A stretch of DNA of 64,000 nucleotides from Flammeovirgaceae bacterium (lineage in GTDB: Bacteria; Bacteroidota; Bacteroidia; Cytophagales; Cyclobacteriaceae), in NCBI GenBank assembly GCA_027487845.1, contig JAIYCV010000046.1, positions 27,481 through 91,480 of the forward strand, written 5' to 3'. This document shows positions 15,216 through 63,503 of this stretch, piece by piece; position 1 is the first letter of the stretch, and every line of letters begins with the position of its first letter. Below the pieces are notes generated by a model, which saw only the letters and a list, made by a program, of their open reading frames with translations, did no database searches and was not told the origin of the DNA. Both the position numbers and the translations under genes were made by a program.

Positions 15216-15456
15216 AAAATTATTTTTTTATCGCGCAACTGAATTTAACTCGTTCGAACTTGCGTTAATTTCGATCGAAACGTTTTTAGTTTTATTCAAA
15301 ACTGGTTTAGTTTTTGGAAATGTGAAAACAAAATTGAGTCAAAAAGATTTAATCGTGCGCAAAATTGAAACAAAAGCGCGCGAAATTTTTTTAGTATGTA
15401 GCAAAATTAAATCAGTTTAATTCAATTTTAAATTGATTGAAGTCGAAACCGATTCG

Positions 15457-15470
15457 ATTTCGATCGAAAT
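15457..15470. repeat. 14-bp perfect palindrome ATTTCGATCGAAAT
   Basis: Self reverse-complementary; 12-bp core TTTCGATCGAAA also at 15269-15280. Confidence 0.7.
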
Positions 15471-15659
15471 TTTTAGAGGTAAAGTGCGTAAAACCCCTAA
15501 AAAACACCGAATTGAGGTTCTTGGAGCTAGAATATGTGATCGCACACGCTGCCATTTGCAGTGACAAAATGAATCATGTTTCTGTTGAACGTAATTCGCA
15601 GAATATTTAGGTGGCGCGGAAACAAGGCGGGCAAATAATTGTAAAGTAGCGAGGTAAAA

Positions 15660-60514: not shown

Positions 60515-60967
60515 TTAACTTCTACACCGATCGAGTAAGTAGCTGAGTTGGTTAGCTTCGTCTTCGGTTAGTTGCTCCAAAGAACCGGCAAAATTGAAAA
60601 CCTTTCTGTCGATTTTTTGAAGGAGTGAAATGCCTAGATCAGAAATTCCAACGTCAGCTGAGCGCTTGTCGTTTGGGCATTGACTCTTTATTACTAGTTT
60701 TTTTAGAATCATGCGATCCAGTAGGCGAGAAACGTCTGAATTTTTATCCAGCATTCGCGATTTAATTTCAGTGCCCGAAATCTTTGAAGGATGTTGACCT
60801 TTCAAAATTCTTAAGATATTGAATTGTTGGTTGGTCAGTCCATATTCTTTAAAATAATCGCGATGTTTATTTTCTAACCAATTGGAAGTGAAAATAAGAT
60901 TAAGCATTGCCTTTTGTTGGGCACTTTTAAACTTCGTTTGCTTTATCTCTTCTTCTATGGTTTTCAT
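60515..60967 (-). CDS. MarR family transcriptional regulator
   Basis: 'YGLTNQQFNILRILKGQHP', 'SDVSRLLDRMILKKLVIKSQCPNDKRSADVGISDLG'. Confidence 0.92.
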   Translation of the reverse strand: MKTIEEEIKQTKFKSAQQKAMLNLIFTSNWLENKHRDYFKEYGLTNQQFNILRILKGQHPSKISGTEIKSRMLDKNSDVSRLLDRMILKKLVIKSQCPNDKRSADVGISDLGISLLQKIDRKVFNFAGSLEQLTEDEANQLSYLLDRCRS

Positions 60968-61144
60968 GTGTTTAAATTAGTAGTGAGACATTAGTATCTA
61001 GACGTGAGACCTGGTACTCATGTTATTTGGTGCAGAGCATCTTAATGGCGATTTCATGCGTTTTAATTAGTAGTTAGATATTAGTATCTAAACGTGAGAC
61101 CGCATAATCATGCTGTTAGGTGTAGAGTTCTTCAATAGCCATTT
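60965..61144. repeat. 90-bp gapless tandem duplication (2 copies)
   Basis: 60965-61054 versus 61055-61144, both starting catg(t/c)gttt(a/t)aattagtagt and ending attt; ~20 mismatches in 90 by hand count. Confidence 0.9.
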
Positions 61145-61163
61145 CATAGGATGGAAGTTAAAA

Positions 61164-62120: not shown

Positions 62121-62435
62121 TTGACGTGTTTTCCTAACGGAACTATCACTCTTGCTAATAGCAAGATATAGTTCTGTCGTTATACTATCTATTCTTGTAT
62201 AAGAAACCCATAGTATTATAATCAAACTATGTGTTTTCGGTAGGAAGCTATCTAATGTTGCAACAAGAATACATGTTCTTTTCACACAACTATATATTGT
62301 CTTATCACATCCATGTATTATCCTCATAGGACTATGTATTTTAGTGAGATTACTATATCGTGTTATGAAGGGACAATCTATTTCCTTAACAGAAGTATAT
62401 CTTCTCATTTTAAAAACACATCACAATAACGGTAA
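62121..62435. repeat. Degenerate tandem array with 21-bp period (about 14-15 units)
   Basis: Cut every 21 bp from 62142; in 13 consecutive units A at pos 4, T at pos 7 and T at pos 10 each occur in 12/13, and pos 1 A, 5 T, 12 T, 15 T in 11/13; rough consensus ACTATnTATTnTnnTaa. Confidence 0.8.
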
Positions 62436-62629
62436 AGTATATGACTTTGGCACATGATTTGTTTTTAGCTATGCAACGATATAAAAGCTACACTCACTAA
62501 CTCTCCACCACTATGCAAACATCTACTTGCTGACAATTAAATGTTTAACCCGCTTGGCTACCACACATACTGCTTTGAACGATCGCAAAGAAGTTGATCA
62601 GCAGTAGCGAGGCACAAACAATACTAAAA

Positions 62630-63256
62630 ATGACAAAAGCAAAAGTGAGCTTGGGGCTAGCTAAAATGCCCGTACCCAAGAAAATTGAAACGTCTAGAAA
62701 AATAGTGAAGAGCATAGGTGCGGCTCCTTATTTTACAACTCCTTTGCCCCCTTTAGCGGAAGTTACTACCGCTACGGATGAGTTGGAAACCGCCAGCATA
62801 GCAGCGCAGGGTGGTGGCCCAGCCCAGACTGCAATTATGCACGATAAAGAGGCTATACTGGATAGTAAGCTTACTCAACTAGGCAATTATGTAGAAATTA
62901 TAGCCAATGGCGAAGATACCATTATACTTGCTGCGGGCATGGATGTAAAAGGAAAAGCCTCTCGCCAACCAAATAAGTTTACCATAGTACATGGCGACCA
63001 TGAAGGGGAGGCAATTTTGCAGACACCCGTAACGCCACGTGCTAGCTATGTATGGCAAAAAAGTGTTGATCCACTTCCAATGGATAACCCCACATCGGCA
63101 AATGCCAGCAAGTGGGAGCAGTTTGCCATTACCACTATTGCCACGGCCACTATTGGCGAGCTAGTGCCTGGCACTAGGTATTGGTTTAGGGTAGCCCCCA
63201 TCACCTCTAGCGGGCAGGGTTTGTGGAGTGACCCTATTAGTATGATTGCTCAATGA
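62630..63256 (+). CDS. Small fibronectin type III-like domain protein
   Basis: 'LVPGTRYWFRVAPITSSGQGLWSDPISMIA' FN3 C-terminal strands; N-terminus 'KVSLGLAKMPVPKKIETSRKIV'. ATG at 62630 preferred. Confidence 0.8.
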   Translation: MTKAKVSLGLAKMPVPKKIETSRKIVKSIGAAPYFTTPLPPLAEVTTATDELETASIAAQGGGPAQTAIMHDKEAILDSKLTQLGNYVEIIANGEDTIILAAGMDVKGKASRQPNKFTIVHGDHEGEAILQTPVTPRASYVWQKSVDPLPMDNPTSANASKWEQFAITTIATATIGELVPGTRYWFRVAPITSSGQGLWSDPISMIAQ

Positions 63257-63284: not shown

Positions 63285-63314
63285 AAAGCCCTTGTAGATT
63301 TCTACAAGGGCTTT
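63285..63314 (+). terminator. Strong terminator after FN3-like gene
   Basis: AAAGCCCTTGTAG (63285-63297) / CTACAAGGGCTTT (63302-63314), 13-bp perfect stem, ATTT loop. Confidence 0.85.
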
Positions 63315-63503
63315 GGTTTTATAACGGATAGCACCCTCGGTTCAACAGAAAAAGGCAAGTCAAGAAATAGGTAAAACTGTAAGAAAAGTATTGGGTGGAT
63401 ACTCCCAAGGAGGGTTATATGGTATACGACTTAATACAATGTATCAAATAAATTGTGTAATTGCTAACGCGCCAAGACCATTAAACCTTTGTTTATAGAT
63501 GTC

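Follow-up and report, generated by a model that had tools for sequence, protein, structure and literature searches.

The DNA described here is a stretch of 64,000 nucleotides from a Flammeovirgaceae bacterium (contig JAIYCV010000046.1), referred to below as the window. Near its right end lies an intergenic tandem array of 21-bp units, followed by a leader, a gene for a small protein with a domain like fibronectin type III (FN3), and a terminator-like hairpin. The features of this locus are as follows.

62121..62414, no strand assigned: 21-bp array of 14 units, each exactly 21 bp, approximate consensus ACTATNTATTNTNNTNANNNN
62150..62166, no strand assigned: perfect inverted repeat TCTTGCT-AAT-AGCAAGA spanning the junction between units 1 and 2, read from the sequence; the array contains several such repeats
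62436..62456, no strand assigned: possible outlying in-phase unit AGTATATGACTTTGGCACATG, leave-one-out score 4.9
62415..62629, plus strand: leader, from the array to the start codon
62630..63256, plus strand: FN3-like gene, 208 aa
62630..62944, plus strand: N-terminal helical bundle, residues 1-105
62963..63253, plus strand: C-terminal FN3 domain, residues about 112-208, from a PF00041 match, an AlphaFold2 model and a fold match
63286..63315, plus strand: terminator-like hairpin AAAGCCCTTGTAGA-TT-TCTACAAGGGCTTT, then T-rich sequence, read from the sequence

The limits of the array were set by leave-one-out unit scores, and its strongest units occupy 62184-62414. The original prediction had cut this DNA into consecutive 21-mers with A4, T7 and T10 each conserved in 12 of 13 units; the 21-mers lie where it placed them, and direct reading gave the same counts. 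It had also expected the period to stand out against dinucleotide shuffles. This was the case, with autocorrelation z values of 6.55, 6.99, 6.80, 6.56, and 7.72 at lags of 21, 42, 63, 84, and 105. The column statistic for period 21 is 4.04, compared with a maximum of 1.80 in 2000 shuffles and, for any period from 5 to 59, of 2.43 in 1000 shuffles. The strict 21-bp period of the window array is confirmed as real. Similarity between units is flat with distance along the array up to lag 105, which speaks against recent local duplication. Tandem Repeats Finder, proposed as a further check, did not report the array at score 30.

The start codon of the FN3-like gene, ATG 62630, was set by comparison with relatives, the mechanical start of the open reading frame being TTG 62594. 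No counterpart of the N-terminal helical bundle was found in Pfam, NCBIfam or PDB. The C-terminal part matches PF00041 with an E-value of 9e-4, which is below the gathering score, and PF00041 was matched in 29 of 46 relatives of the protein. Membership in the FN3 fold was found through the model (pLDDT, predicted local distance difference test, 93) and through Foldseek matches to FN3 domains (probability 1.00). The gene is probably monocistronic, since the hairpin and T-rich sequence follow it, and similar hairpins are found downstream of many relatives. Purifying selection acts on the FN3-like protein, and substitutions are far more frequent at third codon positions than at the first two. A search of the leader for a conserved promoter motif was negative, and the Bacteroidota motif TAnnTTTG, with 9 matches in the leaders against 4 expected, is not conserved. 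To the left of the array, the order peptidase-MarR-YceI is kept in relatives, and none of the relatives inspected has the array. Two 90-bp direct repeats with an 81% match are also present at window 60962-61147, between the MarR-like and YceI-like genes.

The FN3-like gene has three paralogs in its own genome, and three further genomes of the genus contain relatives. Its distribution is patchy (4 of 59 relatives). Each full-length locus within the genus has its own period-21 array just upstream, and the unit sequence is different every time, so that the period is conserved in related genomes, as the original prediction had it. A phylum-wide sample added five genomes of other groups that encode full-length relatives, and all of the loci fetched had arrays. 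A wider scan with one genome per species identified 54 loci. The loci come from Bacteroidota, Verrucomicrobiota, Planctomycetota, Acidobacteriota, Ignavibacteria, and Methylococcales. Among cultured bacteria, Limnovirga soli KCS-6 has both array and gene (L048/L020). With a uniform detector (score >6.5), an upstream array of 20-22-bp period was found in 56 of 58 full-length relatives, counting those that have a start codon preceded by 150 bp or more of sequence and including the near-duplicates L054/L055, L050/L062, and L069/L072. The expectation that copies would precede FN3-like genes is borne out by this count. The detector failed at L056 and L057, and L066, a locus without a clear start codon, was also without an array. 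Only 3 of 400 random 900-bp segments of the bacterium's own genome passed the same detector. Loci that match the FN3 part alone (L024-L028 and L094-L096) served as a negative control and had no arrays. The arrays are noncoding and positioned 5' of the gene. They comprise 6 to 24 units, with a median of 12, and the median distance from their end to the ATG is 190 bp. Periods of 20 (L080), 22 (L090), and 41 (L087) were also seen, and the arrays of L019 and L082 are less degenerate than the window array. Clustering of the neighbours around these loci revealed no recurrent gene family.

A second protein family also shows this arrangement. A solo array in genome G032 (L171) is followed, 40 bp downstream, by a different small protein. 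A search with this protein found 14 members, counting L171, whose gene could be read, and 10 of these have an upstream array. In a profile comparison the families align over 191 columns with an E-value of 9e-6 and a probability of 83%, and the models of both have a helical N-terminus and a beta-sandwich C-terminus. From the profile match and the likeness of the models, the arrays belong to a helix+FN3 superfamily in which the second family is distantly related. The second family itself (L171:11841-12530) consists of small proteins with a helical N-terminus and an FN3-like C-terminus; it has no Pfam match and is multi-copy in G311.

Arrays were also sought by scanning. In 1.26 Mb of the bacterium's own genome there are nine noncoding period-21 arrays, compared with one for all other periods from 13 to 35. 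The nine include L136, where the open reading frame across the array is spurious. Four of the nine precede FN3-like genes and five are solo. One of the gene-less arrays lies in the window, and the others are elsewhere in the genome.

15216..15505, no strand assigned: another 21-bp array of the window, with no gene attached; it aligns without gaps over 289 bp, at 76% identity, with the array before the FN3-like paralog L013/L124
L125:5133-5419, L126:8472-8961, L136:2088-2542, and L195:239-680: further solo noncoding 21-bp arrays of the same genome

Strong palindromes of the form GGTA..TACC make up the units of the L195 array. Around the solo arrays of L125, L126, and L136, no FN3 remnant was seen. 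In 800 kb sampled from three relatives that lack the FN3 gene, there were no 21-bp arrays of note. There was a marginal match in one relative without the gene (G016, z 7.1), and a 22-bp match in another (G007, L206) resembles a tRNA-type 110-bp repeat. L126 also contains a sensor kinase (L126:4652-7969) with a long N-terminal heptad coiled coil that gives a coding 21-bp periodicity, and it would suit as a positive control for true heptad coding. A period-18 signal near window 41900 (z 11.3) is probably a coding hexapeptide repeat.

The arrays keep their spacing and not their sequence. Similarity of the unit profile between loci is 0.97 where the proteins are more than 90% identical, 0.46 at 60-75% identity, and near the background of 0.30 below 60%. 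Within one genome, G000, the arrays L005, L009, L013, and L015 have units of equal length and unrelated sequence. Three array comparisons, including window 15216-15505 with L013, gave 133 substitutions and zero gaps inside the arrays, while one leader for comparison gave 3 gaps per 21 substitutions, all of these being small counts. Judged by these alignments, array spacing is conserved much better than array sequence, which drifts between loci, and the proposal that spacing is the maintained property holds.

Within the unit, columns are unevenly conserved in 36 of 52 arrays. Dyad symmetry was found at p<0.05 in 23 of 50 arrays when compared with flanking genomic 21-mers (Fisher 3e-20). An earlier dyad test, with a column-permuted null (40 of 50 at p<0.05), was too lenient, as coding 21-bp repeats passed it in 4 of 6 cases, and it is not used here. 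Alternating units with a 42-bp super-period occur in 10 of 44 arrays. Perfect inverted repeats of at least 11 bp are present in 10 of 50 arrays compared with 5 of 150 neighbouring segments, and the mean length of perfect inverted repeats is 9.2 in arrays and 7.0 in non-array segments. Long examples measure 24 bp in L079, across two units, and 21 bp in L099. The L079 repeat is far longer than expected and could perhaps come from template-switch repair of quasi-palindromes. No 10.5-bp sub-period was found within the arrays.

The best explanation, to which a probability of roughly 0.4 is given for its two parts jointly, is that array and FN3-like gene form one two-part genetic module, present in at least five bacterial phyla, whose array would be a DNA-level, helically phased, palindrome-like platform for a putative binder. 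Strict two-turn spacing, free sequence and dyad bias together fit a double-stranded DNA platform best. The array would act in cis, with palindrome-like sites lined up in phase along one helix face, and a dimeric or oligomeric protein would assemble on it cooperatively. The placement of the array before the gene suggests that the assembled protein may control or package the promoter or 5' region of that gene. A single sequence-specific regulator for all arrays appears unlikely, since the four paralogous arrays of one genome are unrelated in sequence. For the same reason, the binder would either read spacing and symmetry above sequence or be locus-specific. In the latter case, the one known candidate is the FN3-like protein encoded next to the array. 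A more specific and doubtful idea is that the helix+FN3 protein itself assembles on the phased array of its own locus, where it would recognise helical spacing and dyad symmetry instead of sequence. The original interpretation of the array is partly supported, and its predicted cooperative protein-binding or nucleoprotein site on one helix face is compatible with these results.

Several observations weigh against the platform and the module. The lone indel seen in another pair of arrays, L069 and L072, is 42 bp, or exactly two units. In close pairs, conserved columns change about as fast as variable ones, and the dyad symmetry of the window array itself has p=0.07 under the stricter null. Arrays with periods of 20 and 22 bp would leave one helix face over 12 units. 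The five solo arrays in 1.26 Mb stand without a gene.

The array could instead be transcribed with the gene as a structured leader RNA, a row of hairpins bound by the FN3-like protein or by a regulator. The long perfect inverted repeats of several arrays, such as those of L079 and L099, would suit such a role, and 52-nt satellites of Bacillus have been reported to be transcribed (PMC8625621). Fold energy is below that of column-shuffled arrays (mean z -1.12), a modest excess once the baseline of -0.45 for non-array DNA is considered (p=0.009). However, the two strands fold equally well, with the sense strand more stable in only 22 of 52 arrays, and G-U and A-C mismatches number 71 and 51, which is no clear preference. 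Fixed-column covariation is absent overall and clear in L075 alone, and no Rfam family was matched at the gathering score. An RNA role is possible and is not favoured, because folding is strand-symmetric and G-U pairs are not clearly preferred; it is judged rather unlikely. The module could also be a non-autonomous mobile element that is moved in trans, with the array as its recognition end and the gene as its cargo. Its patchy spread, the several divergent copies per genome, and neighbours that differ everywhere would agree with this, as would the solo copy at window 15.2 kb and the break of synteny with relatives just left of the window array. L054/L055 is a 1.5-kb duplication within one genome that ends at the stop codon, and the homology of L050/L062 starts at the array edge. 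Against mobility, the unit sequence is different at every locus, block ends vary between pairs, target duplications were not seen, and no transposase recurs among the neighbours. Single-query searches of plasmid and phage records were without matches, and no phage, plasmid or viral-contig homologs of single members were found. An empty-site search at the window locus defined no exact insertion site, the right flank not being syntenic. No terminal repeats were found, and a mobile module is considered unlikely.

Functionless 21-bp units, arising from fixed-length slippage or template switching, would account for the 42-bp two-unit indel of L069 and L072, for the subset of arrays with alternating and inverted units, and for a rate of sequence evolution that is about that of the leader. 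Constant-size satellites are also described without this gene (PMC8161180). Such a mutational satellite is nevertheless quite improbable given the near-obligatory 5' position before one protein superfamily across phyla, the lack of notable arrays in the FN3-less relatives sampled, and the absence of gaps despite 24% divergence between window 15216-15505 and the L013 array. Intrinsically curved DNA was also among the roles first suggested; it would bend the promoter region, and the bends of phased repeats would add up whatever the sequence. Predicted curvature is mildly raised at most, at 12.1 compared with 9.2 degrees per 21 bp using wedge parameters. In only 8 of 50 arrays is it above that of column-permuted controls (p<0.05), and the 10.5-bp half period is missing. 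Curvature is a very improbable explanation. A decayed heptapeptide-repeat gene had been suggested as well. In favour of this, or of a recoded gene, 21 bp is seven codons and one 115-aa antisense frame is open across the window array. This frame has no family match. Heptad coding is refuted by the period-20 and period-22 arrays, to which the period of 41 can be added, and by the lack of any frame consistently open across arrays; its likelihood is negligible.

Iterons and plasmid centromere arrays are rows of about 20-22-bp sites with a spacing near two turns, replicon-specific units and a dedicated gene adjacent. The present arrays share with them the two-turn rows of sites, the locus-specific units and the adjoining dedicated gene. 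They differ in being chromosomal, many per genome, dyad-biased and highly degenerate, and their neighbour is not Rep or Par. The replication or partition gene that stands beside iterons, parS or parC was not found: no neighbour family recurs, and the linked protein is helical plus FN3. The centromere-like site once proposed is unlikely, as the arrays are chromosomal, occur several times per genome and are without recurrent ParA- or Rep-like neighbours. Tn7-like transposon ends contain tandem 22-bp TnsB sites and, like the present arrays, have several sites of about two turns in a row at the edge of an element. Here, there are about 12 units on one side, the unit sequences differ so that no site sequence is conserved, and no recurrent transposase is adjacent.

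The closest known class was described by Subirana & Messeguer (PMC8161180): noncoding satellites of bacteria whose length is constant, at 20-21 or 52 nt, and whose sequence varies. The authors suggest protein polymerisation on DNA or RNA roles and note the two helical turns. The present arrays are alike in being noncoding, in their 20-21-nt tandem period, in having several families of the same length and unrelated sequence per genome, and in a short conserved word per array. They are unlike those satellites in being mostly degenerate, so that the high unit identity found by a standard tandem-repeat search is missing, in being dyad-biased and tied 5' to a defined protein superfamily, and in occurring in Bacteroidota, Verrucomicrobiota, Planctomycetota, and Acidobacteriota. 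No partner gene is named in the consulted parts of PMC8161180, and a term search of the paper found neither fibronectin nor Bacteroid- groups. Literature searches found no report linking such satellites to FN3-like genes or to another partner gene. Thus far, constant-length, sequence-variable satellites have been an open puzzle of bacterial genomes, with neither a partner nor a function known. The FN3-like gene would be new as the first partner gene for this known but unexplained class of repeats. Degenerate arrays that are overlooked by repeat finders can be recovered by way of the neighbouring gene. With a near-obligatory partner superfamily, a conserved placement and a symmetry rule, the satellite puzzle becomes testable biochemistry. 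If the helix+FN3 protein does assemble on its own array, the module would be a new kind of DNA-protein element that recognises itself, spread over several phyla, and constant-size bacterial satellites would have their first explanation.
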